Assembly (NCBI RefSeq): GCF_007992095.1
Contig: NZ_BJZP01000006.1
Location: 124,001-188,000 of the forward strand
Direction of reading: 5' to 3'
Length of the DNA: 64,000 bases
DNA from: Paenirhizobium naphthalenivorans
GTDB taxonomy: Bacteria; Pseudomonadota; Alphaproteobacteria; Rhizobiales; Rhizobiaceae
Below, one piece after another: positions 2,875 through 24,922 of the stretch. Position numbers and translations under genes: made by a program. The notes beneath the pieces were generated by a model that was not told the DNA's origin, ran no database searches, and saw only the letters and a list, made by a program, of their open reading frames with translations. Position 1 is the stretch's first letter, and every line of letters begins with the position of its first letter.

Positions 2875-3398
2875 GCGGTGGTTTCCACGTTCCTGGCACG
2901 GAACCGGAAGGGGGCGGCCTAGCGGCCGCCCCGCCGATCGCCGGTCTGGTTAAACGGTCGATCGCCTGGATCAGTGCCATTCTGCTCTGCGCCATGATGC
3001 TGCTAACCGTCGTCGACGTGATCGGTCGTTACGGCTTCAACGCGCCCCTTTCCGGCGCGACGGAAATGACGGAACTCCTGCTATCGGCGATCATCTTCAT
3101 CGGTCTTCCGGCCGCTACGCTCGATCGTGATCATGTGACGGTGGATTTCCTGACCGATCGTCTTTCCGGCGGCATCGAACGGATCCGCGTGCCGTTTGTC
3201 GCGCTGGCGGCGAGCGGCGTCCTGGCCGTCGTCGCCTGGAGACTCTGGGTGATCGGCGAACAGATTGCGGGCTATGGCGGGGTGACGGTCTCGTTGCAGA
3301 TCCCGATTGCGCCCGTCGCCTATCTGGCGGCGTGCCTCACGGGAATTTCTGCTTGCGTCATGCTGGCCATGGCCGGCCTTGCCCTCCGGAGACGTTGA
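2871..3398 (+). CDS. TRAP transporter small permease, DctQ family (set 1)
   Basis: 175-residue integral membrane protein, the four-helix small subunit that stabilises the large TRAP permease. Seen: hydrophobic segments around residues 30-52, 65-85, 105-125 and 145-170, and the family segment DVIGRYGFNAPLSGATEMTE, followed by DRDHVTVDFL. The N-terminus carries about 20 extra Gly/Pro/Ala-rich residues before the first helix. It overlaps the binding-protein gene by 4 bp and is followed after one base by the large permease gene. Confidence 0.88.
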   Translation: MSGGFHVPGTEPEGGGLAAAPPIAGLVKRSIAWISAILLCAMMLLTVVDVIGRYGFNAPLSGATEMTELLLSAIIFIGLPAATLDRDHVTVDFLTDRLSGGIERIRVPFVALAASGVLAVVAWRLWVIGEQIAGYGGVTVSLQIPIAPVAYLAACLTGISACVMLAMAGLALRRR

Positions 3399-3399
3399 G

Positions 3400-4689
3400 A
3401 TGCAGCATTGGGAAATTGGAATGATCGTTCTCTTCGGCCTGCTCCTGGCCGGATTGCCGATCTCGCTCGCCCTGACTGCCGTCGGTGTCCTTGGCACTGC
3501 GATGATCATCGGGTGGGAGCCGTCGCTGTCGTTGCTCGGTCAGACATTCTTCGACAACAGCCGCAGCTATTCGCTGTCGATCCTGCCGCTGTTCCTGATG
3601 ATGGGCAACTTCGTTGTGCAGTCGGGCGTGGCGCGCGATCTCTATGAAGCCGCCTATGCCTGGCTCAGGCATCGCCGTGGCGGGCTTGCTGTTGCCACCA
3701 TCATCGCCTGCGGCGGTTTTTCCTCGGTTTGCGGCTCGTCGCTTGCCACCGCCTCGACCATGGCCAAGATCTCGATGCCCTCGATGCGGCGCTTCGGTTA
3801 CCCCGACGGTCTTTCCACCGCCTCGATCGCGGCGGGTGGCACGCTCGGCATCCTGATCCCGCCTTCCGTTATCCTGATGTTTTACGGCCTGATGACCCAA
3901 CAGGACATTGGAAAACTGTTCATCGCCGGCATTCTGCCGGGTCTGATCGGCATCTGTCTGTATGTACTCGCGGTCCGGATGTCGATGGCCTTTGGCCGGA
4001 TCGAACTTCCCGTGGAGCCCAAGCTGCCACTGAAAGAACGCATTGCGGCGCTGAAGAGTGTGTCGGGTGCTCTCGCGCTCTTCCTCTTCGTCATGGGTGG
4101 CATCTACCTCGGTGTATTTACCCCCACCGAAAGCGCCGGCATGGGCGCTGCCGGCGCTTTTCTGTTGGTGGTGATCCGTGGACGGATGAAACTCGATGAG
4201 GCGCTGGCCACGCTCTACGACACGGCCAAGACCACGGCGATGATGAATTTCATCCTGTTCGGGGCGCTCACCTTCGCCAATTATGTGAACCTCTCTGGCA
4301 TGACGACGGACATGCAGGCGATCCTGACCGGTTTCGGTGATCATCCGCTCGGCGTGATCCTGATGATCACGCTGATCTATCTGGTACTCGGTTGCGTGCT
4401 CGAGGGTCTCTCGATGATCACGCTCACCGTGCCGATCTTCTACCCGATCGTCGCCCAATACGGCTTCGATCTCGTCTGGTTCGGGATCTATGTGGTGATC
4501 GTAACCGAGGTGAGCTACATCACTCCGCCCATGGGTCTCAACGCCTTCGTCCTGCGTTCGGTGGTCAAGGATGTGTCGCTCAGCACCATCTTCAGGGGGC
4601 TTTCCATGTTCCTGGTGGTGGATGTGGCGCGGCTGGCGCTGATCCTGCTTTTCCCGTCCATCGTGCTGCTGCTGCCAAGCCTGATGTGA
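3400..4689 (+). CDS. TRAP transporter large permease, DctM family (set 1)
   Basis: 429-residue membrane protein with about 12 helices that carries out sodium- or proton-coupled import. Seen: FSSVCGSSLATASTMAKISMP, GTLGILIPPSVILMFYG, PTESAGMGAAGAF, and the C-terminal ITPPMGLNAFVLRS segment, all characteristic of DctM proteins. The start at ATG 3400 directly follows the DctQ stop; an upstream in-frame reading from 3307 lies inside DctQ and is rejected. It completes the first of three P-Q-M sets in the window. Confidence 0.9.
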   Translation: MQHWEIGMIVLFGLLLAGLPISLALTAVGVLGTAMIIGWEPSLSLLGQTFFDNSRSYSLSILPLFLMMGNFVVQSGVARDLYEAAYAWLRHRRGGLAVATIIACGGFSSVCGSSLATASTMAKISMPSMRRFGYPDGLSTASIAAGGTLGILIPPSVILMFYGLMTQQDIGKLFIAGILPGLIGICLYVLAVRMSMAFGRIELPVEPKLPLKERIAALKSVSGALALFLFVMGGIYLGVFTPTESAGMGAAGAFLLVVIRGRMKLDEALATLYDTAKTTAMMNFILFGALTFANYVNLSGMTTDMQAILTGFGDHPLGVILMITLIYLVLGCVLEGLSMITLTVPIFYPIVAQYGFDLVWFGIYVVIVTEVSYITPPMGLNAFVLRSVVKDVSLSTIFRGLSMFLVVDVARLALILLFPSIVLLLPSLM

Positions 4690-5172: not shown

Positions 5173-6813
5173 TCAGGCCAGTTTGCGTCCCCGGTTTTCC
5201 GCTTCCGTCAGGGCATTGGTTCCGGCCAGCGCCTGCGCTCGCAACAGCGCCATGTACTCGCGGCCTTGCGCCAGAAGCGGTGCGGCTTCCGCCGGGTCAA
5301 GTCGGGGGGCCATCCACGCCTTGAACGCCCGCCAGGCGGCGTTCAGATAGGCGTTTGCGCCATAAAGCGCTCCCGGTTCACCCGCATGGGCCGCCATGGC
5401 ATCGGCAAGCTCTGCGAAGGCTTCGATAATGGTGCGCGCTTCCGGCCGATTTTCGGTTTCCGCCCGCGCGCGCGTCAGAAACACGTCGAGCCCGCGCCGG
5501 TCGGCCCAAAGCCGCCGGATCAGAAGATCGAGCGCTTGCATGCCGGTGGTGCCCTCATAGATCGTCAGCACCCGCGCATCACGTACGCCCTGTTCCAGCG
5601 GCCATTCCTTGGTATAACCCGCACCGCCCAATACCTGAATTCCGATATCGGCAACCGCCGCGCCGGCGGCCGCGCCGAAATTCTTGATGAGCGGCAGCAG
5701 GAAGGCGGCCAAGGCTGCGGCATCGCTGTCACGGCCGTCGATCCGGGAAAGATCGAGTGTGATCGCCATTTCCAGAACGGCGGCGCGCAGAGCCTCTGTC
5801 TCGCTGCGCATTTCCGACAGCATGCGGGCCACATCCGGATGGTGCGCGATGACAACGGGGCCAGCGTCGGGCCTGCCGCCCTGGCGGCGCTCTTCGGCGT
5901 AGGCTTCCGCGATTTCGCAAGCCATCGTGGCGATACCGAGACCCTGACAGCCGGTCTGCAACCGCATCAGCTCGATCATGGTAAACAATTGTGGCAGACC
6001 GCGTCCGCGCTCGCCGATCAGGATCGCCTCAGATGTTTCAAATGCCATGGCGCAGGTCGGAGAGCCGTGCATGCCCATCTTTTCTTCAAGACGCTGAATG
6101 GTGATGCCGTTGGAACTGCCGCAGGCGCGGGTGGAGGGTACGAGAAACAGGCTCAGGCCTCGTGTGCCGTGGCGATCTTCGGAACGGGCCAGCACACAAT
6201 GGCCGATGCGCGCGACAAGATCGTGATCGCCAAACGAAATCCAGATTTTCTCACCGGTGACGGACCAGCCGTCCCCGGTCTGTTCGGCGCGCATGCGGAT
6301 GCGCCCGACATCGGAACCGGCATCGGGTTCGGAGATACAGATGGTCGCCGCCCATTCGCCACTTGCCAGCCGTGGCACCCATGTATCGGCGGTTTCCCGG
6401 TCGGCATGTTCCGCCAGGAGGTGGGCGGCCGCCCGGGTGGCTCCCGCCGCCATCATGAAGGCCGTGGCGTGGCGTTCGCAAAGCGGCAGCATGGCTGCCT
6501 GTAGGGTGAGCGGCAGGCCGGAGCCGCCGAATTCCTCAGGCAGGTCGAGCGCAAGCCAACCGCCTTCGGCGTAGGCGGTCCATGCCTGCCGGTAGCCGTC
6601 CGGCGTTTTTACCCGGCCCTCTTCGAGACGGCAGCCCTGCTCATCGGCGCGCGGACCAAGGGCTGAGAGGGTGTCTTCGGCCATCTTCCGAGCCGCGTCG
6701 AGAATTGCCCCCGCCGTTTCCAGGTCGCAATCCGGCCTTGCGGCGCAGAGGGTCGTCCAACCCGGTGTCGCTTTCAGCAGCCGTAAGGTCCGTTCTGCCT
6801 GATCCAGAGACAT
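5173..6813 (-). CDS. Acyl-CoA dehydrogenase (PhdD-like role proposed)
   Basis: 546-residue FAD enzyme that introduces a 2,3 double bond into an acyl-CoA. Seen: the FAD/substrate signature ICISEPDAGSDVG, the GEKIWIS segment, EKMGMHGSPTC, and VLTIYEGTTGMQALDLL, whose Glu aligns with the catalytic base of the large acyl-CoA dehydrogenases. Length fits the 550-600-residue subgroup with an extra C-terminal domain, the same subgroup as the gene at 24923. It is the last gene of a leftward unit with an SDR and a CoA ligase. In Phd/Cou phenylpropanoid pathways this enzyme lets the cell use saturated side chains (for example dihydroferulate). That role is inferred from neighbours. Confidence 0.87.
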   Translation of the reverse strand: MSLDQAERTLRLLKATPGWTTLCAARPDCDLETAGAILDAARKMAEDTLSALGPRADEQGCRLEEGRVKTPDGYRQAWTAYAEGGWLALDLPEEFGGSGLPLTLQAAMLPLCERHATAFMMAAGATRAAAHLLAEHADRETADTWVPRLASGEWAATICISEPDAGSDVGRIRMRAEQTGDGWSVTGEKIWISFGDHDLVARIGHCVLARSEDRHGTRGLSLFLVPSTRACGSSNGITIQRLEEKMGMHGSPTCAMAFETSEAILIGERGRGLPQLFTMIELMRLQTGCQGLGIATMACEIAEAYAEERRQGGRPDAGPVVIAHHPDVARMLSEMRSETEALRAAVLEMAITLDLSRIDGRDSDAAALAAFLLPLIKNFGAAAGAAVADIGIQVLGGAGYTKEWPLEQGVRDARVLTIYEGTTGMQALDLLIRRLWADRRGLDVFLTRARAETENRPEARTIIEAFAELADAMAAHAGEPGALYGANAYLNAAWRAFKAWMAPRLDPAEAAPLLAQGREYMALLRAQALAGTNALTEAENRGRKLA

Positions 6814-6821
6814 GGCGGCTC

Positions 6822-7583
6822 CTATTTCGGCTGCAGCCGGATGCCGCCGTCGAGGCGGATCATTTCGGCATTGAGATATTGTGTTTCCACGGCAAAGAGC
6901 ACGGCGTCAGCAAACTCCGCCGGATCGCCGAGGCGGGCGGGGTAGGGAACCGACGCGGCGATGCTTTCGCGCGCCTCTTCCGGCAGCTCGCCGAGCAGGG
7001 GTGTATAGAAGATGCCTGGGGCGATCGTATTCACCCTTATACCGAAGCGCGAAAGTTCGCGGGCCACAGGCAGAGCCATGGCGACAATGCCGCCTTTGGA
7101 TGCGGCATAGGCGGCCTGGCCGATTTGCCCGTCCTGAGCCGCCACGGAGGCGGTGTTGACGATGACGCCGCGCGCGTTGTCCTCAAGTGGCTCAAGTGTC
7201 GTCATCCGCGCCGCCGTCAGCCGCATCACGTTGAATGTGCCGATCAGGTTGACGCGGATCACCCGCTCGAAATCCTCAAGCGGCTGGGCCCCCTCGCGAC
7301 CGACCATCCGTGCCGCCGTTCCGATACCAGCGCAGTTGACGAGGATACGCACAGGGCCGAGCGTTGCCTCGGTCTTATCGAGCGCGGCGATCACATCGGC
7401 TTCGCTGCTGACATCGCCAGCCAGACCGAGTCCACCGATCCGGCCTGCTTTCTCCATCGCCGCATCGCCGTTACGGTCGAAAATGGCCACTTTTGCGCCT
7501 TTGGTGGCCAGCGCCTGCGCTGTTGCTGCGCCAAGCCCAGAAGCTCCGCCCGTCACCAGCGCGGTAAGACCGTCAATCTTCAT
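6822..7583 (-). CDS. SDR-family 3-hydroxyacyl-CoA dehydrogenase
   Basis: 253-residue short-chain dehydrogenase with NAD cofactor. Seen: TGGASGLG at residues 11-18, D36 after the second beta strand (favouring NAD over NADP), NCAG at 83-86, and the catalytic Ser146, Tyr159 and Lys163 (YAASK). The overall pattern matches type II 3-hydroxyacyl-CoA dehydrogenases (HSD10-like). It lies 8 bp upstream of the acyl-CoA dehydrogenase and overlaps the end of the ligase gene by 4 bp. Proposed role: oxidation of the 3-hydroxy-3-arylpropanoyl-CoA to the beta-ketoacyl-CoA, equivalent to PhdC/CouN. Confidence 0.88.
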   Translation of the reverse strand: MKIDGLTALVTGGASGLGAATAQALATKGAKVAIFDRNGDAAMEKAGRIGGLGLAGDVSSEADVIAALDKTEATLGPVRILVNCAGIGTAARMVGREGAQPLEDFERVIRVNLIGTFNVMRLTAARMTTLEPLEDNARGVIVNTASVAAQDGQIGQAAYAASKGGIVAMALPVARELSRFGIRVNTIAPGIFYTPLLGELPEEARESIAASVPYPARLGDPAEFADAVLFAVETQYLNAEMIRLDGGIRLQPK

Positions 7584-9457
7584 AGCGAGCTCTCCTGCAT
7601 TTGCGGGGTGATGATGCGCGGACTTCCGCTTTTATGGAGCATGTCCACCAGTTCAGGCCGCTGCAACAGCACGGCGCGCTGGTTGACCGAACCCTTGTCG
7701 GTGACCTCGCCCTTGTCCATGCCAAGCGGGCGGCGCAGAACAATGGCGCGCATCACACGCGTGGCCGATCCGGTCGCGGCGGCGGCGTGGACGGCAAGCC
7801 TCTCGGCGATTGCGGCGCGGATGACCGGATGATCGATGACATCTTCGTCACTCAGCCCTTCTCCGTTTTCCGGCAACAGCGCCCGCAGCGCCGGTTGATA
7901 CGGCACGAGCAGCGCACCCAGTTCGGTCTCGTTCTCGCCGGTGATCACGCAATCGCGGACGAGGCCCTGCATCTGGTCGATCAGCTGGGCGCGCAGTGGA
8001 CCAACCGCGACCCAGGTGCCGGTGCGAAGCTTGAAGTTTTCAGCAATCCGCCCATCAAAATAAAACCCTTTGGTCGGGTCACCCGGCACGACGAAGCGCA
8101 GCGCATCGCCGATCTTGTAAAAACCTTCCTCGTCAAAGGCCTTCTCCGTCAGTTCGGGACTACGCCAGTAACCCGGCGTGATATTCGGACCTTTGAGCCG
8201 CAATTCCAGCTTGCCGCTGTTGGGCACCAGTTTCATCGTCACGCCGCGCGCGGGAATGCCGACGTTACCGGGCACATCCTGCTCCTCGGTGCAATAAAGT
8301 GAAAAGGGCGCGGTTTCGGTCGAGCCTAACCCGGTGGTCAGAAGCACCCGCTCGCCGACGGTCTCCTCTGCAAGGGTTTTCAATCGCCGCCAGGTGTGTA
8401 GTCCGAGCCCCGCGCCCGCATACATCATCAATCGCAGATTGCGGAAGAATGTCTCGCGTAGCGCCGTATCAACCTCCATGGCATCGACCAGAAGCTCAAA
8501 ACCGGCCGGCACGTTGAAATACCAGGTGGGCGAGATTTCCTTTAGGTTGCGAATGGTCTCGGCCATGCCCTTGGGCGTAGGCTTGCCGTCGTCGATATAA
8601 TAGGTGCCGCCGTGATAAAGGGCGATGTTGAACGCCTTGTTGCCGCTTGCGGTGTGGTTCCACGGTGCCCAGTCCACGAGGACCGGAGGTTCGTCCTTCA
8701 TGAAGGCGTAGCAGTCGAGGATCATTTCCTGATTGGCGCACAGCATCTGCTGCGTCTGGATCACCGCCTTGGGAGAGCCCGTGGTGCCGGAGGTGAAGAG
8801 GAACTTCGCCACCGTTTCCGGCCCCACCTTGGCATGCGCCGCCGCCACGGCGGGACCCGGGCGGGTCTTGATCATCTCTTCCCAGAGGATCGCTTCATGG
8901 GGCGACGTGACGGGTTTGGAAACGCTGAGAATGGGAATATCCTGGCCGATCACTGCCTCGATCGCCTTCTGGAACGGCAAGCCCTCCTGGGCGAAAACCA
9001 GGCCGGGTGAGATGAGTTCCACAATGTCGCGCAGCTTGGCATGATCGCCCGACAGCAGCGAATAGGCGGGCGAGACCGCCGCGGACGGGACGCCGACATG
9101 CTGGGCGGCAAGCGCCAGCATGGCATGTTCTATGCTGTTGCCGGAAAGAATAAGAACCGGGCGGTCGAGTGACAGATTGAGATCCAAAAGAGCCTGTCCG
9201 ATCTTCTCGATCGTCCAGGCGAGTTCGCCGTAGCGGGCCCGCCGCCACTGGCCGGACGCATCGCGCTGCGCCATCCATGGGCGGTCGGGCACCAGATGCG
9301 CCCAGTGGAACACGCGGTCGGTGATACGGTTGGCATGTGCGGGCAGAGGATCCTCACGCCAGATCACAGTGGCGCCGTCGGGACGCTCCTCCCACGCCAG
9401 GTGAGGCTCCCATAGACGTACGGCCCTAACACCGTCAGGTGTTGAATTCATTGTCAT
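7580..9457 (-). CDS. Feruloyl-CoA synthase-like acyl-CoA ligase
   Basis: 625-residue AMP-forming ligase that activates an aromatic acid with CoA and ATP. Seen: the P-loop-like FLFTSGTTGSPKAV motif, the LTTGLGSTETAPF motif, and the KIGDALRFV and FDGRIAENFKLRTGTWV segments. The N-terminal LWEPHLAWEERPDGATVIW region and the 620-residue length are typical of feruloyl-CoA synthases rather than of fatty-acid ligases. The start is ATG 9457, preceded by GGAGGAG; a longer in-frame reading to 9550 is rejected because it runs through the AT-rich promoter region. Divergent from the enoyl-CoA hydratase gene. Proposed substrate: ferulate, p-coumarate or their dihydro forms. Confidence 0.88.
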   Translation of the reverse strand: MTMNSTPDGVRAVRLWEPHLAWEERPDGATVIWREDPLPAHANRITDRVFHWAHLVPDRPWMAQRDASGQWRRARYGELAWTIEKIGQALLDLNLSLDRPVLILSGNSIEHAMLALAAQHVGVPSAAVSPAYSLLSGDHAKLRDIVELISPGLVFAQEGLPFQKAIEAVIGQDIPILSVSKPVTSPHEAILWEEMIKTRPGPAVAAAHAKVGPETVAKFLFTSGTTGSPKAVIQTQQMLCANQEMILDCYAFMKDEPPVLVDWAPWNHTASGNKAFNIALYHGGTYYIDDGKPTPKGMAETIRNLKEISPTWYFNVPAGFELLVDAMEVDTALRETFFRNLRLMMYAGAGLGLHTWRRLKTLAEETVGERVLLTTGLGSTETAPFSLYCTEEQDVPGNVGIPARGVTMKLVPNSGKLELRLKGPNITPGYWRSPELTEKAFDEEGFYKIGDALRFVVPGDPTKGFYFDGRIAENFKLRTGTWVAVGPLRAQLIDQMQGLVRDCVITGENETELGALLVPYQPALRALLPENGEGLSDEDVIDHPVIRAAIAERLAVHAAAATGSATRVMRAIVLRRPLGMDKGEVTDKGSVNQRAVLLQRPELVDMLHKSGSPRIITPQMQESSL

Positions 9458-9612
9458 TTTTCTCCTCCAAAAAAACGCCTCTCCCAAGCGTCTGCGCTGA
9501 AGCGCCTCAAATATAGTTTGCAACAAAACATTTTTTATGGAAACAATCAACGCAGAAACAAAATATCTGCTGCCGGGTCGACCCGGCCCACGGCCTCAGG
9601 AGGAAGCTGTCC
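9458..9612. promoter_or_regulatory. Divergent promoter region, ligase and hydratase genes
   Basis: 155-bp region between two divergent catabolic units. Its middle (about 9509-9566) is strikingly AT-rich for this genome and carries TTTGCAACAAAA and a run of T, a likely promoter and MarR-binding zone. The gene at 10407 encodes a MarR protein that could act here. No exact operator can be named. Confidence 0.5.
9572..9587. promoter_or_regulatory. 16-bp perfect palindrome before hydratase gene
   Basis: GCCGGGTCGACCCGGC is a perfect 16-bp palindrome ending 25 bp before the ATG at 9613. It may be an operator or a leader hairpin close to the ribosome binding site (AGGAGG at 9598-9603). No second copy was noticed in the window. 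Confidence 0.35.
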
Positions 9613-10407
9613 ATGTCCGACGTCCCAAAAGACACCCTGGTCACCTATGACGTACGGGAGGGTGTCGCCTTTGTGGGATTGAACCGTCCGGAAAAGCGCA
9701 ATGCGATCAGCGACCGGTTCGTGGAGGCGCTCGCCGCCACGGTTGTCCGCGCGGAGCAGGAAGCCAGGGCGGCGGTACTGTTCGGGCATGGCGACCATTT
9801 CTGTGCCGGACTGGATCTTTCCGAACATGTGGAAAAAACGCCGATTGAGGGCGTGCGCGGCTCGCGCCGTTGGCATCGGGTTTTCGAAGGAATCGAGCGC
9901 GGCACCATTCCATGGATCTCCGCGCTGCATGGCGCGGTGGTTGGCGGCGGATTGGAGCTGGCGTCCTCCACTCATGTGCGGGTGGCCGACGAGAGCGCCT
10001 TTTTCGCACTTCCAGAGGGGCAGCGCGGTATTTTTGTCGGCGGCGGCGGCTCGGTCCGTACCGCGAGGCTGATGGGGGTCGCGCGGATGAGCGATATGAT
10101 GTTGACGGGCCGGGTCGCTTCCGCCCGCGAGGGCGAGGCGTGGAACCTGGCGCAATATGTCGTGCCAAAGGGACAGGCGCTTGCAAAGGCGGCGGAACTG
10201 GCCCGCAAGGCGGCCGGCAACGCCGAGCTGTCGAATTACGCCGTAATCAATGCGCTGCCGCGCATTCAGGACATGTCGTCCGAAGACGGGCTGTTCGTGG
10301 AGAGCTTCGTTTCCGCGTTCACCGCCACCAGCCCCGAGGCAACCGAGCGTCTGCGCGCCTTTCTTGAAAAACGCGCCGCGCGGATCAAACATCCGGGAGA
10401 GTTGTAA
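9613..10407 (+). CDS. Crotonase-family enoyl-CoA hydratase
   Basis: 264-residue crotonase-fold enzyme expected to hydrate a cinnamoyl-type enoyl-CoA. Seen: FCAGLDLSEH at 63-72 and HGAVVGGGLEL at 106-115 (the two oxyanion-hole segments), and Glu135 in FALPEGQRG at the first catalytic Glu position. The second catalytic position appears as Asp161 (SDMMLTG) where hydratases usually have Glu. A hydratase-lyase (Ech/HCHL) that releases vanillin is the alternative, but the nearby SDR and amidohydrolase favour a hydratase in a beta-oxidative route. Stop and next start overlap (TAATG). Confidence 0.87.
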   Translation: MSDVPKDTLVTYDVREGVAFVGLNRPEKRNAISDRFVEALAATVVRAEQEARAAVLFGHGDHFCAGLDLSEHVEKTPIEGVRGSRRWHRVFEGIERGTIPWISALHGAVVGGGLELASSTHVRVADESAFFALPEGQRGIFVGGGGSVRTARLMGVARMSDMMLTGRVASAREGEAWNLAQYVVPKGQALAKAAELARKAAGNAELSNYAVINALPRIQDMSSEDGLFVESFVSAFTATSPEATERLRAFLEKRAARIKHPGEL

Positions 10408-10892
10408 TGCCTTATGACGATGCGCAGCAAACGCTGAGCCTGCCCGACGAACAGCGCATGACACTCGGTCCGCTGGGGCGCTCTCTGGGTTTCCTCCTCA
10501 GGATCTCCCAGGTGACGGTGTTCGAGAAATTCTACGCGACGCTTGGCGACCTGGGGCTGAAGCCCGGCGAATTTTCCGTGCTCTGGCTGATCTGTAACAA
10601 TCCCGGCATCCGCCAGGGCGTGGTGGCGCGCAATCTGCACATCAAGAACGCGCGCATGACCAAGCTCATCCGCACCTTTGAGGACAAGGGGTTTGTCAGC
10701 CGCCTTGTGCCTGATGATGATCGCCGTGCCGTCGAGCTCACGCTGACTTCGGAAGGTCGCGCCTTTGTCGACGCGAACGCGGAGGATTTCTTCACCTATT
10801 CACAGAAGGGAAAGAGCCGGCTGACGCCCGAGGAGATGGGAGAGCTGATCCGGCTTCTGCAGAAATATACCGGAATGGAGGAAACCGAATGA
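10407..10892 (+). CDS. MarR family regulator (PhdR/CouR-like position)
   Basis: 161-residue winged-helix regulator. Seen: FSVLWLICNNPGIRQGVVAR and the recognition segment NLHIKNARMTKLIRTFEDKG, followed by the wing VPDDDRRAVELTLTSEGRAF. It is translationally coupled to the hydratase upstream and to the amidohydrolase downstream (ATGA), so it belongs to the same operon. In the actinobacterial Phd and Cou systems a MarR repressor responds to the aromatic acyl-CoA; a similar role is inferred here from its place between pathway genes. Confidence 0.88.
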   Translation: MPYDDAQQTLSLPDEQRMTLGPLGRSLGFLLRISQVTVFEKFYATLGDLGLKPGEFSVLWLICNNPGIRQGVVARNLHIKNARMTKLIRTFEDKGFVSRLVPDDDRRAVELTLTSEGRAFVDANAEDFFTYSQKGKSRLTPEEMGELIRLLQKYTGMEETE

Positions 10893-11764
10893 ATATCGAC
10901 GATCTCGTCGCCATCGACATCCATACCCATGCCGAAGAGCCGTGTTGCACCCATCGCGATGATGGGTATAACGAGTTTCAGGCCGGCATGGCACGGTATT
11001 TCTGCAATCCGGCCGGCGCCGACGGCATGTTGCCGACGGTTCAGCAGACCGCCGACTATTTCCGCGAGCGCAGGATCGGCGCGGTGATCTTTCCGGTGGA
11101 CGCCGAGCGCGAGACCGGTTTCCGTCGCTATTCCAACGAGGACGTGGCGAGGATCGCAGCGGAAAACTCCGACATTTTGATCCCCTTTGCCTCGATCGAT
11201 CCGGCCAAGGGTAAGGCGGGAGCGCGGGAGGCGCGCCGGCTTGTGCGCGATTTCGGCATCAAGGGGTTCAAGTTCCACCCGACGATGCAGGGCTTTTATC
11301 CCAATGACCGATCAGCTTACGTGCTTTACGAGGCTATCGCGGAAGAGGGCGGGGTGGCGCTGTTTCACACCGGTCAGACCGGCGTTGGCGCGGGCATGCG
11401 CGGCGGTATGGGCATGCGGCTGAAATATTCGAACCCGATGTTCATTGACGACGTGGCGGTGGATTTTCCGGATATGAAGATCATTCTCGCGCACCCCTCT
11501 TTCCCCTGGCAGGAGGAGGCGCTTTCGGTCGCGACGCACAAACCCAACGTTTATATCGACCTGTCCGGCTGGTCTCCGAAATATTTCCCGGAAATCCTGA
11601 TCAAATACGCAAACACGATCCTGAAGCGAAAAGTGCTGTTCGGATCGGACTGGCCTGCCATCACACCGGATCGCTGGCTTGATGACTTCGCGAAGATCGA
11701 CATCAAGGAGGAGGTGCGCCCGCTCATTCTGAAGGAGAATGCCAAGGCGTTGCTGGCCCTTTAG
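10889..11764 (+). CDS. Amidohydrolase-2 family hydrolase, proposed aryl beta-ketoacyl-CoA hydrolase
   Basis: 291-residue metal-dependent TIM-barrel hydrolase. Seen: DIHTH with the metal-binding HxH at 12-14, His130 (FKFHP), His160 (LFHTG), His202 (LAHPS) and Asp254 (FGSDW), the full amidohydrolase ligand set. Family members include decarboxylases and hydrolases. In Phd/Cou phenylpropanoid clusters an amidohydrolase (PhdB/CouO) cleaves the aryl beta-ketoacyl-CoA to aromatic acid and acetyl-CoA, replacing a thiolase. Ligase, hydratase, SDR, dehydrogenase and MarR genes are all adjacent and no thiolase is present in region A, which supports that role. A decarboxylase acting on a ring-cleavage product is the alternative. 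Confidence 0.8.
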   Translation: MNIDDLVAIDIHTHAEEPCCTHRDDGYNEFQAGMARYFCNPAGADGMLPTVQQTADYFRERRIGAVIFPVDAERETGFRRYSNEDVARIAAENSDILIPFASIDPAKGKAGAREARRLVRDFGIKGFKFHPTMQGFYPNDRSAYVLYEAIAEEGGVALFHTGQTGVGAGMRGGMGMRLKYSNPMFIDDVAVDFPDMKIILAHPSFPWQEEALSVATHKPNVYIDLSGWSPKYFPEILIKYANTILKRKVLFGSDWPAITPDRWLDDFAKIDIKEEVRPLILKENAKALLAL

Positions 11765-11792
11765 AGAGGCCATTTACAAGGAGGAGGAAAAC

Positions 11793-12902
11793 ATGAAAAC
11801 CCTATTGGTTGCCGCTATGGCTGCCGTATTGGCCGTAGGCGGAGCAGAAGCCCGCGCGCTGCGCGCCGCGCCGGGAGCGCCTCCGGCGCACCCGTCCAAC
11901 GGTTATCTTTATGCGCCTTTGCCCAAGATTCTTGAGGAGGAATCCGGCGGCACGATGAGCGCGACGATCCTGGGTCCTGAAGTTGTGACCCTTGGTCAGA
12001 TGAAAGACGCGCTGCAAAGTCAGCTTGTCGAAGTGGGCAATATGCTCCCGCTTTATTTCCCCGCCGATTTGCCGAACATGGCGCTTGCGGGCGAACTTGC
12101 CCTTTCCGGACGTGACCCGCAAGTGATGGCCGCCGCGATGACCGAATACATGGTTTTCTGCGACAGCTGCCAGAAGGAGTTGGGCAATTTCGGCGTGGTC
12201 TATCTCGGTTCCGGTTCGTCTGATGTTTATGCGCTGCTGACCAAAACGCCGGTAAAGACCGCCGAGGATCTCAAAGGCCTGCGCTTGCGCTCCGGCGGCG
12301 CTCCATTCTCGCGCTGGGCCGAACATTTCGGCGCGGTTCCGGCCAGTGTTTCAGTGAACGATCAGTTCGAAGCGATGAGCCAGGGCGTCATCGACGGTTC
12401 CATCGCCTCGGTTGCCGACCTTCTGTCTTTCCGTCTGATCGAGCTTGCGAAATCGGTGACGGTGCTGCCACTTGGCACCTATCATGCCACGTCGGATTTC
12501 ACCGTTTCGAAGCTGGCGTGGGATCAGATGTCGGTCGACGAGCGTAAAGCTCTGGCGCGTTCCGCTAACCGTCTCAATCCGCTCTTCACCCATCGTTGGG
12601 GCAAAGAGATGCCCGCCGAAGCGAGCGATGCGGCGAAAAAGGCCGGCATCACCTTTGTCGAGCCGGATCCGGCGCTCCTTCAGGCAACCGAGGCTTTCGC
12701 TGAGGCCGACAAACAGACCGTTGGCGAAGTGTCGGTCGAACGCTTCGGCCTTGCCGACGCCCCCGCGCGGGTCGCCCGTTTCGACGGGCTAGTGGATAAG
12801 TGGGCCGGCCTTCTGGCGGGCGTCACGGATCCGGTCGACATCGCCAAGGTGCTTCAGGCCGAGATCTGGGACAAGGTGGATTTCGCCAGCTACGGCGACT
12901 GA
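11793..12902 (+). CDS. TRAP solute-binding protein, DctP family (set 2)
   Basis: 369-residue periplasmic binding protein. Start ATG 11793 follows AAGGAGGAGG and begins a signal peptide (MKTLLVAAMAAVLAVGG, probable cut near AEA-RA). Seen: GLRLRSGGAPFSRW, FGAVPASVSVNDQFEAMSQGVIDG, the ligand-binding region of DctP proteins. The mature N-terminus is shorter before the conserved core than in set 1 and carries an Ala/Pro-rich stretch. It lies 28 bp after the amidohydrolase gene, so it is probably in the aromatic-pathway operon. TarPQM of Rhodopseudomonas is a known TRAP system for p-coumarate and ferulate, so a hydroxycinnamate ligand is plausible. Confidence 0.87.
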   Translation: MKTLLVAAMAAVLAVGGAEARALRAAPGAPPAHPSNGYLYAPLPKILEEESGGTMSATILGPEVVTLGQMKDALQSQLVEVGNMLPLYFPADLPNMALAGELALSGRDPQVMAAAMTEYMVFCDSCQKELGNFGVVYLGSGSSDVYALLTKTPVKTAEDLKGLRLRSGGAPFSRWAEHFGAVPASVSVNDQFEAMSQGVIDGSIASVADLLSFRLIELAKSVTVLPLGTYHATSDFTVSKLAWDQMSVDERKALARSANRLNPLFTHRWGKEMPAEASDAAKKAGITFVEPDPALLQATEAFAEADKQTVGEVSVERFGLADAPARVARFDGLVDKWAGLLAGVTDPVDIAKVLQAEIWDKVDFASYGD

Positions 12903-12921
12903 TCCGGCCAAAGGGCTTCCG

Positions 12922-12944
12922 GGCGGAGCGGTTTCCGCTTCGCC
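12922..12944 (+). other. Intercistronic hairpin between binding protein and permease genes
   Basis: GGCGGAGCGG and CCGCTTCGCC form a 10-bp stem with one G-U pair and a TTT loop, 20 bp after the dctP-like stop. No T-run follows, so it is more likely an RNA-stabilising or processing hairpin that keeps binding-protein mRNA above permease mRNA than a terminator. Confidence 0.5.
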
Positions 12945-13033
12945 ATTCAGCAAACATGTCAGAGACAACGAGTCAGGGCATTTCCGCATGTGAGGAGATG
13001 GACGTGCCCTGACCCCGTTGCCGGGAGGAAGAA

Positions 13034-13555
13034 ATGCCTATTCAGATCGGCTTTGCCGACCGGGTGTTCCGTTTGATCGCCCTGCTGGCGTCCATCGGCA
13101 TTATCGCGATGATGATCCACGTATGCGCGGACGTGATCTGGCGCACCGTTTCCGGCCGGCCGCTGCCGGCGACTGTGGAAATTGTATCGCGCTATTACAT
13201 GGTCTTTGTCGCCTTCCTGCCACTTGCCTGGGTCGAGCAGCGACGCGCCATGATCAGCGTCGAAATCGCCGAGGGCTTCATGACCACTCCTGTCAGGGTT
13301 TTCTCCGACATCGCCGTGGCGCTGTTTTCCTGCGCCGTCTACGCGGTGATGACATGGACCACCTGGGAGATGGCGTTGAAGAATTACGCCACGGGCACTT
13401 TCGTCATGGCGCTGAACCAGCAGGTGCCCGTCTGGCCAAGCTACTTCCTGCCGCCGTTCGGTTTCGGCCTTGCCGCCTTCGCCACGGCGCTGCGCGGTGT
13501 GGACATCATACGCGGCGCATTCCGCGGCCAACCCGCGACCGGAGGTACAGAATGA
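13034..13555 (+). CDS. TRAP small permease, DctQ family (set 2)
   Basis: 173-residue membrane protein with four predicted helices. Seen: FRLIALLASIGIIAMMIHV as first helix, DVIWRTVSGRPLPATVEIV, the DctQ family loop, then WVEQRRAMISVEIAEG, the usual conserved stretch before helix three. Start ATG 13034 is preceded by GGGAGGAAGAA. The stop overlaps the DctM start by 4 bp (ATGA). Confidence 0.87.
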   Translation: MPIQIGFADRVFRLIALLASIGIIAMMIHVCADVIWRTVSGRPLPATVEIVSRYYMVFVAFLPLAWVEQRRAMISVEIAEGFMTTPVRVFSDIAVALFSCAVYAVMTWTTWEMALKNYATGTFVMALNQQVPVWPSYFLPPFGFGLAAFATALRGVDIIRGAFRGQPATGGTE

Positions 13556-14856
13556 GTGTCGAAGTCGGATTTTACGGCGTCGGAATTTTGATGATCCTGC
13601 TCTTGCTGCGGGTGCCCGTGGCATTGGCGCTGATCGGAGTGTCCTTCGGCGGGATCACGTGGCTTCTGGGATTGACGCCGGCATTGGGGATCGTCTCAAA
13701 CACGCCTTACAGCTTCGTCGCAAGCTGGACAATGAGCGCCGTGCCGATGTTTGTGCTGATGGGGTTCGTTTCCTTCCACGCCGGGCTGACCGGTGGCCTG
13801 TTCGAAGCGGCCAAATCTGTCCTCGCCCGCGTGCCCGGCGGGCTCGCCATTTCGTCGATATTTGCCTGTTCCGGATTTGCCGCCGTTTCCGGCTCGTCGT
13901 TGGCCTGCGCTGCCGCCATGGGACGAATCGCCATTCCGGAAATGGTCGCGGCCGGATACCGTCCCTCTGTGGCGGCCGGAACAATCGCGGCGGGAGGCAC
14001 GATCGGCGCATTGATCCCGCCCTCCATCCTCATGATCGTCTATGGCGTTTTCGCCGAAACCTCCGTCACAGAGGTCTTTCTCGGCGGCATTGGCATTGGC
14101 CTGCTGACGGCTGTCTCCTATTCGCTAATCGTTGTCGTGATTTGCCTTTTCAGGCCTGATATCATCCCTCGCCGGCTCGAGGGCGTAAGTGCTGGCGGCG
14201 GGCTTGCCGCCATCGCGCAGATATGGCCGACTCTTGTCCTCATCGGCCTGGTTTTTGGCGGATTGTTTTCCGGGCTGTTTACCGCCACCGAGGCTGGAGC
14301 GGTGGGCGCACTCGGAGCCATCGCGCTCTCCGCGCTGACCGGACGGCTCACCCGCAAGGTGATGCGCGACAGCCTGGTTGAGACACTCGCCACCTGCGCC
14401 TCGCTGTTCATCATTGGTATCGGGGCGGCGATGTTCACCCGTTTTCTCGGCGTCACCGGCCTGTCGTCCTTCATCAGCTATGCCGTGTCGGGAGCCGATC
14501 TCAGTTATCTGCAGCTTATGGCGATCATCGTGTTCGTATACATCGTGATCGGCACCTTCATGGAACCCTTCGGCGCGATGCTGATCACGCTGCCGGTGCT
14601 GCTGCCCGCCGTCGAGGCGCAGGGCCTCAATCTGGTGTGGTTCGGCGTGCTCGTGGTCAAGCTGCTGGAGATCGGCATGATCACGCCGCCGGTGGGACTG
14701 AACGTCTTCGTGATTCACTCCGTCGCCGGGCGTCATGTGTCGGTGGCGCAGATTTTCATGGGTGTTCTGCCGTTCCTTGTCGCCGACTTCATCGTTGTGG
14801 CTCTGGCGGTGCTTGTGCCCGGCCTGGTGTTGTTCTTCCCGATGTTGCTTCAGTAG
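13552..14856 (+). CDS. TRAP large permease, DctM family (set 2)
   Basis: 434-residue membrane transporter. Seen: FAAVSGSSLACAAAMGRIAIP, GTIGALIPPSILMIVYG, TEAGAVGALGAIAL, and ITPPVGLNVFVIHS near the C-terminus, all DctM signatures. Translation is coupled to DctQ by a 4-bp overlap. It is followed within 2 bp by a GntR-type operator that marks the start of the next transcription unit. Confidence 0.9.
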   Translation: MSVEVGFYGVGILMILLLLRVPVALALIGVSFGGITWLLGLTPALGIVSNTPYSFVASWTMSAVPMFVLMGFVSFHAGLTGGLFEAAKSVLARVPGGLAISSIFACSGFAAVSGSSLACAAAMGRIAIPEMVAAGYRPSVAAGTIAAGGTIGALIPPSILMIVYGVFAETSVTEVFLGGIGIGLLTAVSYSLIVVVICLFRPDIIPRRLEGVSAGGGLAAIAQIWPTLVLIGLVFGGLFSGLFTATEAGAVGALGAIALSALTGRLTRKVMRDSLVETLATCASLFIIGIGAAMFTRFLGVTGLSSFISYAVSGADLSYLQLMAIIVFVYIVIGTFMEPFGAMLITLPVLLPAVEAQGLNLVWFGVLVVKLLEIGMITPPVGLNVFVIHSVAGRHVSVAQIFMGVLPFLVADFIVVALAVLVPGLVLFFPMLLQ

Positions 14857-14857
14857 T

Positions 14858-14867
14858 ATGTATACAT
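14858..14867. promoter_or_regulatory. Palindromic GntR-type operator, upstream copy
   Basis: ATGTATACAT, a perfect 10-bp palindrome starting 1 bp after the DctM stop. The same core TGTATACA recurs at 14921 with centres 62 bp apart (about six helical turns), which suits looping or cooperative binding by the GntR protein encoded at 16024. Confidence 0.6.
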
Positions 14868-14902
14868 TCTAGGCGAATTCATCCATTTTTCGCCGTTTTA
14901 TA

Positions 14903-14930
14903 TTGAAAAAAGACAATTCATGTATACAAT
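14903..14930 (+). promoter_or_regulatory. Sigma-70-like promoter of the Rieske oxygenase gene
   Basis: TTGAAA at 14903-14908 and TACAAT at 14925-14930, separated by 16 bp, upstream of the oxygenase ATG at 14963. The -10 box overlaps the TGTATACA operator, as expected for repression by promoter occlusion. Confidence 0.55.
14921..14928. promoter_or_regulatory. GntR-type operator overlapping the oxygenase promoter
   Basis: TGTATACA, an 8-bp palindrome sharing its core with the site at 14858 and overlapping the likely -10 box. FCD-type GntR regulators commonly bind short palindromes of the TNGTNNNACNA type, which this fits loosely. Confidence 0.6.
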
Positions 14931-14962
14931 AAAAATCATTCAGGAGGATGGAGGAAACCGAA

Positions 14963-16027
14963 ATGTCCGGACAGACGGGTGAGAAGACTTTTCCGGTCAA
15001 CTGTTGGTACGCGGCCGCTTATGACGTGGAGCTGAATCGCAAGCTTCTGCCGCGGCGTATCTGCAACAAGCCGATGGTCATGTATCGCAAGCTCAATGGC
15101 GATGCCGTGGCGCTGGCCGACGCCTGCTGGCACCGGTTGCTGCCGCTTTCCAAGGGCGAGCTCAATGGCGACAATGTGATCTGCGGCTATCACGGGCTTG
15201 AATTCGATGACACCGGCCGCTGTGTATACATGCCGAGTCAGGAAACCATCAATCCATCGGCTTGTGTCACCAGTTATCCGGCGGTTGAACGCCACCGCTT
15301 TCTCTGGGTCTGGCCAGGCGATCCGGCGCTGGCAGATCCGGATCTGATCCCCGACATGCACTGGAACGACGACCCGGAATGGGCGGCCGACGGAAAGGTC
15401 ATCCACGCCAAATGTGACTACCGGCTTGTGGTCGACAATCTGATGGACCTCACCCATGAGACATTCGTGCATGGCTCGTCCATCGGCAATCGCCATGTCG
15501 CCGAAGCGCCATTTGAAACCACCCACACTGACACCACGGCAAAGGTCACCCGCTGGATGGTCGACGTGGAGGCTCCGCCTTTCTGGGCCGCGCAACTGGG
15601 GCAGAAGGAGCATATCGATCGCTGGCAGATCATCAATTTCCAGGCGCCGTCGACGATCTGCATCGATGTCGGCGTGGCGCCCACAGGCACGGGCGCGCCC
15701 GAGGGGGATCGCTCCAAGGGTGTCAACGGCTATGTGCTGAACACGATGACGCCGGAAACCGACAAGACCTGTCACTATTTCTGGGCCTTCGCGCGCAATC
15801 ACCATATCACCGACCAGAGCTGGACACACAGGCTGCGCGAGGGCGTGTCGGGCGTGTTCCGCGAGGATGAGGAAATCCTGGAGGCTCAGCAGAGGGTGAT
15901 CGACGAGAACCCCGACCACACCTTCTACAATCTCAACATCGATTCCGGTTCGATGTGGGCGCGCAAGCTGATCGACCGCATGATTGCCCGCGATGACGGA
16001 CCGGCGCGGCAGATTGCGGCGGAGTGA
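14963..16027 (+). CDS. Rieske oxygenase, vanillate O-demethylase-like alpha subunit
   Basis: 354-residue aromatic-ring/O-demethylating oxygenase. Seen: a Rieske centre CWH at 55-57 and CGYH at 74-77, and the mononuclear iron site DNLMDLTHETFVH around 158-170, with His165 and His170 as likely ligands and Asp162 in the electron path. The length and NCWYAAAYDVE start match VanA and related demethylases. ATG 14963 is preceded by GGAGGAAACC; the in-frame ATG at 14948 abuts AGGAGG with no spacing and is less likely. A GntR gene and a VanB-type reductase follow. Expected reaction: vanillate to protocatechuate plus formaldehyde; the exact methoxy-arene is not proven. Confidence 0.85.
   Translation: MSGQTGEKTFPVNCWYAAAYDVELNRKLLPRRICNKPMVMYRKLNGDAVALADACWHRLLPLSKGELNGDNVICGYHGLEFDDTGRCVYMPSQETINPSACVTSYPAVERHRFLWVWPGDPALADPDLIPDMHWNDDPEWAADGKVIHAKCDYRLVVDNLMDLTHETFVHGSSIGNRHVAEAPFETTHTDTTAKVTRWMVDVEAPPFWAAQLGQKEHIDRWQIINFQAPSTICIDVGVAPTGTGAPEGDRSKGVNGYVLNTMTPETDKTCHYFWAFARNHHITDQSWTHRLREGVSGVFREDEEILEAQQRVIDENPDHTFYNLNIDSGSMWARKLIDRMIARDDGPARQIAAE
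15223..15230. promoter_or_regulatory. Intragenic TGTATACA site
   Basis: Third copy of the operator core, inside the oxygenase coding sequence at codons for CVYM. Its flanks (TGTGTATACATG) resemble the upstream sites. It may be a downstream auxiliary operator or a chance match imposed by the Val-Tyr codons. Confidence 0.3.
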
Positions 16028-16764
16028 GCGACATGTCGTCAGACGGGATCAACCAGACACATCGGGCCATCATGGCGCTCAGGGAACGCATTCTCTCCGG
16101 CGCTGTCGAACCCGGCGGTCGTCTTTACGAGGTCCCGCTGGCGCGTGAGCTTGACCTTTCCCGCACTCCCCTGCGTGAGGCCTTGTCGCGGCTTGAACAG
16201 GAAGGTTTGCTGGAACGGGGCGTAAACGGCGGATATACCGTTCGCCGCTTTACGGTCCAGGACGCGATAGACGCCATTGAGCTCAGAGGCGTTCTGGAGG
16301 GAATGGTGGTGCGCATGGCCGCCGAGCGCGGCGTGACTGCCGCCGGGTTGTCACGGCTTCAGGGCATCGTTCTGGAGCTGGACGATGTGGTGGCCGCGGG
16401 ACCGGACCTGCTCGATATCGACCGCTATGCCGACCTGAACAATGCCTTTCACGATGGCCTTCTGGACCTGGTGGAAAGCGATCTCATGAAACGGGAAGTG
16501 CAGCGGTCGCGAAGGCTTCCCTTCGCGTCTCCCAATGCGTTCCTCGTCGATGACGAGAGCGTGATGGCCTTTCGCGCCTCGCTTGCCGGAGCGCAGGCAC
16601 AGCACCGCGGGATTGTCGAGGCCATTGGCGCGCGCGAAGGCACCCGTGCCGAAGCGCTGGCGCGCGAGCATACAAGGCCCGCACGTCGCAATCTTGATTG
16701 CATACTGAAGCATGATCGGCGGCTAGTGGAGACCGTCCCAGGCCTGCGGCTGGTCGTACTCTGA
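16024..16764 (+). CDS. GntR family regulator, FCD subfamily (VanR-like)
   Basis: 246-residue regulator with an N-terminal winged helix and C-terminal all-helical FCD ligand domain. Seen: ILSGAVEPGGRLYEVPLARE, the recognition segment LSRTPLREALSRLEQEGL and VNGGYTVRRF wing, then AIELRGVLEGMVVRMAAERG opening the FCD domain. The start is either GTG 16024, overlapping the oxygenase stop, or ATG 16033. Placed between oxygenase and reductase genes, it is the obvious candidate to bind the TGTATACA sites. VanR of Caulobacter and relatives has the same layout. Confidence 0.87.
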   Translation: MSDMSSDGINQTHRAIMALRERILSGAVEPGGRLYEVPLARELDLSRTPLREALSRLEQEGLLERGVNGGYTVRRFTVQDAIDAIELRGVLEGMVVRMAAERGVTAAGLSRLQGIVLELDDVVAAGPDLLDIDRYADLNNAFHDGLLDLVESDLMKREVQRSRRLPFASPNAFLVDDESVMAFRASLAGAQAQHRGIVEAIGAREGTRAEALAREHTRPARRNLDCILKHDRRLVETVPGLRLVVL

Positions 16765-16907
16765 CACTTTGAAAGTGCCATTGTTCGCGATGAGAGAAAC
16801 GGAACCGTTCTTTCACCCGGCTGCCAGTGTTTCGGAAGATACCGGTCCGATGTGGACCAACACAGTTGAGGGCCTGCGGAGAGGAGCCGCCGGCAAGGGA
16901 GGAACCG

Positions 16908-17876
16908 ATGAGATCGCAGAGTGAATGGCGGCAGGCGGCTGTCGCCAGCGTGGATAATATTGCCGAGGACGTGCGCCGGGTGGTGTTCGATGTTACCGGG
17001 GAGGTGCCGAAATTCGATGCCGGGTCGCATCTGAACATTCGTGTGACGATCAACGACCAGCCGGCGATCCGCACCTATACCGTGGTCCCGTCCGGGCCGG
17101 GGCAGCTGGCGATCGCGGTGAAACTGCATCCGCAAAGTCGGGGAGGCTCACACTTCATCTGGGGCCTGAAGCCGGGCGACGGCGTGGCGCTGACGCTTCC
17201 GGAGAACCGGTTCGAGCTTTCCTGGCGGGCCGGCCATTACCTGCTGCTCGCTGGCGGCATCGGCATCACGCCGATCTATGGCATGGCACGGGCGCTTGCC
17301 GCGCATGGGACATCACTGAAAATGTGCTATGGCGCGCTGAACCGAGCATCGATGCCATATCTCTCCGAACTTGAGACGCTTCTGGGCGATCGTCTTGCCG
17401 TGTTCGAGGCCGAGCGCGACGAGACCATCGACCTTCAGGCCGAAATCGACGACTTGCCCGAAGACGGCGAGCTTTATGTCTGTGGCCCGCTGGGCATGCT
17501 GGAAGCCGTCAAGCGCGTCTGGGCCGCCTCTGGCCGTCCCGTTTCGCGGCTGCGCTACGAGGTGTTCGGCGACAACGGCAAGTTTGCCGAGGCAACCTTT
17601 GAAGTCGAGGTGCGCAACCGGAATATCACCGTCACCGTTCCACCGGACAAGACCCTGCTTGACGCGCTTGAGGAGGCCGGCGTCGAGACGATTTCCGACT
17701 GTCGGCGGGGCGAATGCGGCCTTTGCGCAGTCGGTATCGACAGGCTCGACGGTGAGGTGGATCACCGTGACGTGTTTTTCAGCGATGAGGAAAAGGCTGG
17801 AAACAAGGCGATGTGCGCCTGCGTATCGCGGCTCGTTTCGGGCCGCGCCGTGATCGACATCGGGTACCGGGCCTGA
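16908..17876 (+). CDS. VanB-type oxygenase reductase
   Basis: 322-residue reductase partner for the Rieske oxygenase. Seen: flavin-binding RTYTVVP near residue 60, NAD-binding LLAGGIGITPIYGM near 125, YVCGPLGMLE near 190, and a C-terminal 2Fe-2S domain with C265, C270, C273 and C303 (CRRGECGLC, then KAMCAC). ATG 16908 follows GGGAGGAACC; a longer reading from 16827 is rejected. The RTYTV motif differs from the canonical RxYS/T of VanB only slightly. It lies 143 bp after the GntR gene and shares fold and domain order with the truncated gene at the window start. Confidence 0.88.
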   Translation: MRSQSEWRQAAVASVDNIAEDVRRVVFDVTGEVPKFDAGSHLNIRVTINDQPAIRTYTVVPSGPGQLAIAVKLHPQSRGGSHFIWGLKPGDGVALTLPENRFELSWRAGHYLLLAGGIGITPIYGMARALAAHGTSLKMCYGALNRASMPYLSELETLLGDRLAVFEAERDETIDLQAEIDDLPEDGELYVCGPLGMLEAVKRVWAASGRPVSRLRYEVFGDNGKFAEATFEVEVRNRNITVTVPPDKTLLDALEEAGVETISDCRRGECGLCAVGIDRLDGEVDHRDVFFSDEEKAGNKAMCACVSRLVSGRAVIDIGYRA

Positions 17877-23237: not shown

Positions 23238-23245
23238 GCCGTTCC

Positions 23246-24895: not shown

Positions 24896-24922
24896 GTTAC
24901 TTCCTCCCTTGGAGTATCCGAT

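Follow-up and report, generated by a model that had tools for sequence, protein, structure and literature searches.

In this study, we examined a 64,000-nucleotide stretch of the genome of Paenirhizobium naphthalenivorans (hereafter the window; C6:124001-188000, contig NZ_BJZP01000006.1, in an assembly of 4.95 Mb and 139 contigs) and identified two divergent gene units that probably encode a side-chain pathway of the Agrobacterium type. In this pathway, ferulate would be converted to vanillate and acetyl-CoA without vanillin, and an amidohydrolase would replace the thiolase. Behind the two units lie genes for a tripartite ATP-independent periplasmic (TRAP) importer and a vanA-gntR-vanB row with a repressor resembling Atu1419 of Agrobacterium fabrum. 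Published findings are cited by PMC number.

Gene organization of the divergent units

The minus-strand unit comprises genes for an acyl-CoA dehydrogenase (ACAD; 5173..6813; Pfam Acyl-CoA_dh domains, YEGT at residue 419), a short-chain dehydrogenase/reductase (SDR; 6822..7583; Pfam adh_short, cofactor motif TGGASGLG and YAASK of the YxxxK form) and a feruloyl-CoA-synthase-type ligase (Fcs; 7580..9550; motif TSGTTGSPK). The ACAD likely oxidises dihydro-hydroxycinnamoyl-CoA to hydroxycinnamoyl-CoA, and the SDR is likely a 3-hydroxyacyl-CoA dehydrogenase. The best NCBIfam match of the ligase is NF009232 with 724.5 bits, under the cut-off of 777, and its orthologues in loci L118 and L120 carry the annotation feruloyl-CoA synthase. 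The ligase probably starts at the ATG at 9457, which follows GGAGGAG, rather than at the TTG at 9550; with that start, the Fcs|ECH intergenic region measures approximately 155 bases.

The plus-strand unit encodes an enoyl-CoA hydratase of the crotonase type (ECH; 9613..10407), a MarR regulator of the HcaR/CouR type (10407..10892; Pfam MarR) and the amidohydrolase (10889..11764), which is the sole Amidohydro_2 match in the genome. These three genes are likely carried on one transcript because the ECH and MarR frames overlap by 1 base and the MarR and amidohydrolase frames by 4 bases. An earlier sequence-only reading of this DNA had listed the same genes in two divergent units together with a TRAP importer, and all of them were found in place. 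Its remark that thiolase and vanillin dehydrogenase are absent also holds for the two units themselves.

Relationship to known hydroxycinnamate clusters

Judged by gene content, order and sequence, the closest known system is the SpG8-1b hydroxycinnamate cluster of A. fabrum (Atu1415-Atu1422), not the actinobacterial Phd and Cou systems. Ferulate is taken to vanillate in A. fabrum by the ligase Atu1416, the hydratase Atu1417, the dehydrogenase Atu1415 and Atu1421; the ferulate genes are repressed by HcaR (MarR, Atu1422) and the demethylation genes by Atu1419 (GntR) (PMC7797058). As in the window, the SDR and Fcs genes diverge from ECH, the MarR gene lies beside the hydrolase gene, and a GntR repressor of the demethylation step is accompanied by the operator ATGTATACAT. 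Fcs, ECH, SDR and an amidohydrolase-type hydrolase, the combination by which an SpG8-1b-type unit is recognized, occur together in the window.

As a stand-in for the A. fabrum cluster we used locus L011 from Agrobacterium salinitolerans, and the comparisons refer to its proteins rather than to Atu1421 itself. The L011 gene order, MarR-amidohydrolase-LigM-GntR-...-ECH|Fcs-SDR-ACAD, is that of Atu1422-1415. Its amidohydrolase is 84% identical to that of the window and occupies the place of Atu1421, and identities are 65% for the SDR adjoining Fcs, 52% for the MarR protein adjoining the amidohydrolase and 52% for the GntR protein. The L011 GntR protein matches PDB 6z74, deposited as Atu1419, with 477.7 bits over 244 residues; the accession is assigned to Atu1419 in PMC7797058. 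Given this order and this match, the window unit is therefore of the Agrobacterium kind. It differs from A. fabrum in having TRAP genes after the amidohydrolase and in placing MarR and the amidohydrolase next to ECH. In addition, VanA/VanB take the place of two A. fabrum proteins, Atu1420, a tetrahydrofolate-dependent demethylase, and Atu1418.

The sequence-only reading had described the units as built like the actinobacterial systems, a description that gene content, order and sequence do not bear out, since all three match the L011 unit instead. The likeness to the Cou pathway of Rhodococcus jostii and the Phd pathway of Corynebacterium glutamicum would lie, by family and context, in a CoA-dependent β-oxidative deacetylation ended by an amidohydrolase or ketohydrolase (CouO, PhdC) and, for Cou, in MarR control. 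In four actinobacterial clusters that are only presumed to be Cou/Phd-like (L135-L138), the amidohydrolase is accompanied by an SDR, a MaoC hydratase and a different type of ligase, whereas the window has a crotonase and an Fcs-type ligase. The ligase of L137 is 24.8% identical to that of the window over 278 amino acids, a BLAST comparison of the window ECH with the L137 MaoC protein gave no match, and the annotations of the L137 and L138 stretches include no TRAP gene. PhdB had also been named as the counterpart of the hydrolase; in the Phd scheme, PhdB is a dehydrogenase and PhdC is the ketohydrolase (PMC5479773).

Identity of the amidohydrolase

The amidohydrolase is predicted to be an aryl-β-ketoacyl-CoA hydrolase of the CouO/HpeF/Atu1421 type. 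Some of its homologues are named 4-hydroxyphenyl-β-ketoacyl-CoA hydrolase in their source records. It carries the pattern H12-x-H14, H160, H202 and D254, whose metal-binding role we take to be that of the superfamily. Across 28 amidohydrolase sequences, H12, H202 and D254 never vary and conservation at H14 and H160 is at least 90%, in agreement with the full metal site noticed earlier. In the alignment of these 28 sequences, the window protein is 51-85% identical to rows 2-26, which include proteins from hpe contexts. Its assignment to the CouO/HpeF group is based on context and on published identity rather than on the CouO and PhdC sequences: HpeF, 95% identical to CouO, is proposed to end the Hpe pathway by splitting an aryl-β-ketoacyl-CoA (PMC9618137), and CouO is reported to yield an aromatic acid (PMC4737184).

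A ring-cleavage decarboxylase identity was considered and rejected. A PDB search with the single sequence returned the uncharacterised structure 3irs as the sole match at E <= 0.001. With a profile of the 28 relatives, 3irs scored 112.5 bits, and γ-resorcylate, 5-carboxyvanillate and aminocarboxymuconate semialdehyde (ACMS) decarboxylases reached only about 30-40 bits. The protein thus does not group with such decarboxylases in the alignment or in the PDB and profile searches; our 94-row amidohydrolase tree contains no named ACMS decarboxylase or LigJ outgroups and is unrooted with respect to named decarboxylases. The predicted structure (mean predicted local distance difference test score, pLDDT, 85.5) is nearest to 3irs at 24% identity. 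According to this model, the amidohydrolase and the decarboxylases have a fold in common and belong to different families.

Conservation of the cluster and its contexts

Relatives of the amidohydrolase are abundant: at least 8000 pass E 0.001, that is, all scored candidates, which were the 8000 sharing most words with the query. We inspected the loci of the best 80 of 580 confirmed relatives, a sample biased to close kin in which each locus ends at 8 kb or at a contig end, so the gene counts are lower bounds. ECH was present in 64 of these loci, MarR in 57, Fcs in 54, SDR in 42 and ACAD in 40. Fcs, ECH and the amidohydrolase occur together in 54/80, and for that reason the arrangement is not due to chance. 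All six genes are present in 30/80, 24 of the 80 loci show the order and strands of the window, a DctP gene follows within 600 bases of the amidohydrolase in 28, and the window order plus DctP is found in 10. Genomes of Roseobacteraceae, Paracoccaceae and Rhizobiaceae contain this unit, and an annotated plasmid of Rhizobium sp. Q54 (L118) carries the complete nine-gene row including the TRAP genes. On that plasmid, type I-C CRISPR-Cas genes directly adjoin the nine-gene unit (L118 12954-18873).

The distribution of the amidohydrolase is patchy: it was found in 8/36 same-genus genomes and 12/60 genomes searched in all, and in 11/289 genomes of a class-wide draw, with the own genome counted. In one same-genus genome (G029, L184), the match is split into two pieces that overlap but lie in different frames, which may reflect a disrupted gene or a faulty assembly. 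Locus L066, from a record bearing the name Enemella evansiae (Actinomycetota), contains an alphaproteobacterial-looking ECH-MarR-amidohydrolase row at 81%, which could reflect contamination, mislabelling or recent transfer.

The same amidohydrolase family also occurs in hpe-type clusters on plasmids of P. putida YC-AE1 (L119) and R. leguminosarum (L140) and in Rhodococcus sp. JS3073 (L121), where its partners are a biotin carboxylase, an HAD phosphatase and an acetoacetate-CoA-ligase-like enzyme. The three hpe-context amidohydrolases sit in three separate places of the 94-row tree, as expected if one chemistry was reused. Two outer branches of this tree (L141, L142) are very long and its bootstrap values are unsettled, so only this scattering of contexts was used. 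Judged from context, the intermediate common to Fcs-type and hpe-type clusters would be an aryl-β-ketoacyl-CoA. The Hpe pathway for acetovanillone, ending in HpeF, resembles the window in its amidohydrolase family, judged by context, and in its presumed substrate; there a ketone is proposed to be phosphorylated and carboxylated to the β-keto acid, whereas the route of the window would proceed by side-chain oxidation. In three Phyllobacteriaceae loci (L018, L025, L034), the amidohydrolase adjoins an HpeE-like homologue of acetoacetate-CoA ligase, with no carboxylase genes in the stretch examined, an arrangement that perhaps represents a salvage route for aryl β-keto acids. A clade of Nitrobacteraceae, Xanthobacteraceae and unplaced Rhizobiales (L059, L063, L065, L075, L078) has an amidohydrolase at 76-77%, with neither Fcs nor ECH in the stretch examined.

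Vanillin and thiolase routes

Several observations weigh against the proposed pathway. Neither Fcs nor ECH is present in 16/80 of the best amidohydrolase loci, and the family therefore also serves elsewhere. The structural model of the amidohydrolase is poor at residues 20-46, and its solved neighbours past 3irs are mostly decarboxylases at 12-17% identity. The genome also encodes aldehyde dehydrogenases and thiolases, and the Atu1421 step has been given another name; these points belong to two rival pathways.

In the first, ECH would be a feruloyl-CoA hydratase/lyase, an aldehyde dehydrogenase from another locus would oxidise the vanillin formed, and the amidohydrolase would do something else. 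Fcs and ECH genes likewise adjoin in the vanillin route, and a vanillin dehydrogenase may exist among the 25 aldehyde dehydrogenase matches in the genome, one of which lies at C6:115912-117294, roughly 7 kb upstream of the window's start. When 20 of these 25 were scanned against NCBIfam names at strict E-values, eight received a name, none of them vanillin dehydrogenase, and 12 remained unnamed. Any vanillin dehydrogenase in this genome would need its substrate from elsewhere: the window ECH scores 88.7 bits against the hydratase/lyase family NF006588 (cut-off 276), and none of the ten crotonase matches in the genome reaches that cut-off (best 141.1 bits); by this family cut-off, a hydratase/lyase route was rejected. 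The ECH instead matches NF006013 with 398.6 bits (cut-off 232) and keeps the two glutamates, in GGGLE and in ALPE, that form the pattern of true hydratases. A lyase route, moreover, would need neither the SDR nor the amidohydrolase. We consider this rival highly improbable. Because the amidohydrolase is CouO/HpeF-like and no crotonase match reaches the hydratase/lyase cut-off, a vanillin-free route is likely, which supports the earlier suggestion of a thiolase-free, vanillin-free side-chain pathway ending in an amidohydrolase.

The second rival, in which a thiolase encoded elsewhere would cut to vanilloyl-CoA and the amidohydrolase would be a thioesterase or act on a side product, appears quite unlikely. 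Nine of the 11 Thiolase_N matches listed for the genome are over the cut-off; none lies in the two units, and one is inside the window (approximately 29003-30424; TIGR01930 over its cut-off), in a fatty-acid-type block. In the A. fabrum paper, the Atu1421 step is named a β-keto-thiolase (PMC7797058), although the protein so named has, in the stand-in L011, an amidohydrolase sequence. The amidohydrolase is built into the unit by its frame overlap with MarR, whereas the units contain no thiolase. The recurrence of its family in hpe-type clusters, which would share the aryl-β-ketoacyl-CoA intermediate, and the aromatic acid reported as the product of CouO also argue against a thiolase.

The fatty-acid-type block spans 22719-30424 on the minus strand and further contains a small open reading frame (22719-23237), an acyl-CoA dehydrogenase (24923-26683) and a FadB-like protein (26704-29082), the latter two below NCBIfam cut-offs. 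Another aromatic-type block (L115, C6:106001-124500) lies mostly upstream of the window and includes a StyD-like aldehyde dehydrogenase. Also encoded there, with scores under the NCBIfam cut-offs, are proteins of ring-hydroxylating dioxygenase alpha-like, catechol dioxygenase-like, iron alcohol dehydrogenase-like and HsaA-like types.

Predicted MarR control and TRAP transport

The best PDB match of the window MarR protein is 6c28, labelled CouR (53.9 bits) and from Rhodopseudomonas palustris. A degenerate copy of the element TTGTTT-N6-AAACAA with two mismatches, at 9514..9531, is a candidate operator of the HcaR type. With at most one mismatch, this element occurs in 26/46 Fcs|ECH intergenic regions, compared with 1/920 shuffles; these regions had also supplied the pattern. 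In the window, two two-mismatch matches compare with 0.61 expected, which is not above chance alone. The operator assignment in the window was set aside as weak, as only the two-mismatch form is present and the pattern derives from the regions counted.

The TRAP importer consists of the solute-binding protein DctP (11739..12902, probably starting at the ATG at 11793), the small permease DctQ (13034..13555) and the large permease DctM (13552..14856), all on the plus strand and named by their Pfam domains. It extends to 14856, beyond the end of the sequence-only reading at 12902. From its position and the DctP/Q/M families, we predict that it imports the pathway substrate; the PDB relatives of DctP (best 61.4 bits) were too distant to identify that substrate. 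Import by TRAP, as suggested earlier, is a fair reading of the gene position, but a TRAP transporter that takes up hydroxycinnamates has been described before: TarPQM of R. palustris, whose binding protein TarP binds ferulate at approximately 15 nM (PMC3610893). TarPQM likewise lies beside hydroxycinnamate genes, a likeness of position, and is placed by its paper with a non-β-oxidation cluster (PMC3610893).

Three complete TRAP systems are present within 20 kb (1849-4689, 11739-14856 and 17977-20782). Their binding proteins are 23-33% identical to each other, and that of the first system matches PDB 4p56 with 254.5 bits.

Demethylase branch and its repressor

Directly behind the TRAP genes, a vanA-gntR-vanB row (14858-17876 including the operator, plus strand) encodes a VanA-type Rieske oxygenase predicted to be a vanillate O-demethylase (14948..16027; Pfam VanA_C, Rieske), an Atu1419-like GntR/FCD regulator (16024..16764; Pfam GntR and FCD) and a VanB-type reductase (16827..17876, probable start 16908; Fer2, NAD_binding_1, FAD_binding_6). 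An exact copy of the Atu1419-type operator ATGTATACAT lies at 14858..14867, 90 bases before vanA; the exact sequence occurs nowhere else in the 4.95 Mb assembly. One-mismatch copies are located at 14920-14929, at 15222-15231 inside vanA and, unrelated to these, at 54292. The four sites in the window compare with 0.23 expected, and 0/100 shuffles reach four.

We surveyed 60 genomes including the own one; 32 contained a repressor match (28/36 in the same genus) at 33 places, 30 of which were taken as loci. R45, R86, N137, H141, H192, H214 and N221 are kept in 30/30 of these loci, the window's own included. In the Atu1419 paper, these seven residues are given roles at the zinc site, in the citrate pocket and in contacting DNA (PMC7797058). 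Seventeen of the loci have the vanA-gntR-vanB arrangement, 12 have the repressor beside LigM, and one has it beside neither in a short stretch. The LigM pairing is seen in other members of the genus. Outside the own genome, 28/29 repressor loci contain the operator with at most one mismatch, at 58 sites (24 exact) over 107,298 bases, compared with three sites (one exact) in 2/45 other loci (182,372 bases); one of these two loci, L179, itself carries the repressor. The site lies upstream of the demethylase gene in 12/12 LigM loci and 13/17 VanA loci. Of the remaining four VanA loci, three have it only inside vanA, which could be explained by coding constraint, and one (L171) has none. A search of the own genome with the L011 LigM protein gave no match and was run without a positive control; tblastn with the same query finds LigM in the loci of 12 relatives. 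By these sequence comparisons, the repressor, its operator and its pocket residues stay while the demethylase changes between LigM and VanA/VanB.

Formaldehyde set free by VanA/VanB condenses with tetrahydrofolate, giving methylene-tetrahydrofolate. The effector reported for Atu1419 is N5,N10-methylene-tetrahydrofolate (PMC7797058), and because the formaldehyde from VanA/VanB would lead to this same compound, we propose that the repressor reads the one-carbon load. This repressor family, whose first description was alongside the tetrahydrofolate-dependent demethylase, may be a general one-carbon-load sensor for the removal of lignin methoxyl groups, here governing VanA/VanB and induced by methylene-tetrahydrofolate rather than vanillate; we put this forward tentatively, as vanillate could itself be the ligand. 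McbR, another regulator of the VanR group, is reported to bind dihydrofolate (PMC13343897). Neither vanA, vanB nor Rieske is mentioned in PMC7797058, and text searches, judged by titles and the starts of abstracts and with most subscription papers outside their reach, found no paper that states the link proposed here. The vanA-gntR-vanB row with an Atu1419-like repressor and the genome's only exact operator copy is new here.

Proposed pathway and implications

The reactions, substrates and regulatory effects of the degradation pathway proposed here are deduced from what the sequence shows, namely which genes are present, how they are ordered and conserved, the families and motifs of their products, and the operator sites. 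The TRAP system would import the substrate, and its activation by the ligase would give feruloyl-CoA, or else dihydroferuloyl-CoA for desaturation by the ACAD. The crotonase would add water, and the SDR would oxidise the β-hydroxyl. The metal-bound water of the amidohydrolase would then attack the aryl ketone of the β-ketoacyl-CoA, giving free vanillate and acetyl-CoA. The adjoining VanA/VanB would then O-demethylate the vanillate, leaving protocatechuate to be opened by the protocatechuate 3,4-dioxygenase of the genome, where a pcaH-type dioxygenase scores over its cut-off. MarR would repress both units until hydroxycinnamoyl-CoA appears; the side-chain branch would be switched by hydroxycinnamoyl-CoA and, if the repressor does sense one-carbon load, the methoxyl branch by its own one-carbon product. 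Another arylpropanoid, such as p-coumarate, caffeate or a dihydrocinnamate, is an unlikely but conceivable substrate in place of ferulate: the ACAD points to saturated side chains, whereas vanA-gntR-vanB directly after the TRAP genes leads us to expect a methoxylated one.

The presence of this amidohydrolase together with a true hydratase, and the absence of a hydratase/lyase, provides a sequence rule for distinguishing organisms that probably use ferulate without vanillin from those that make vanillin. The degradation of coumaric and ferulic acids in Roseobacter was called an open question in a 2025 paper (PMC12442348). The repressor finding would tie methoxyl removal to folate chemistry and matter for vanillate-responsive promoters and lignin engineering.

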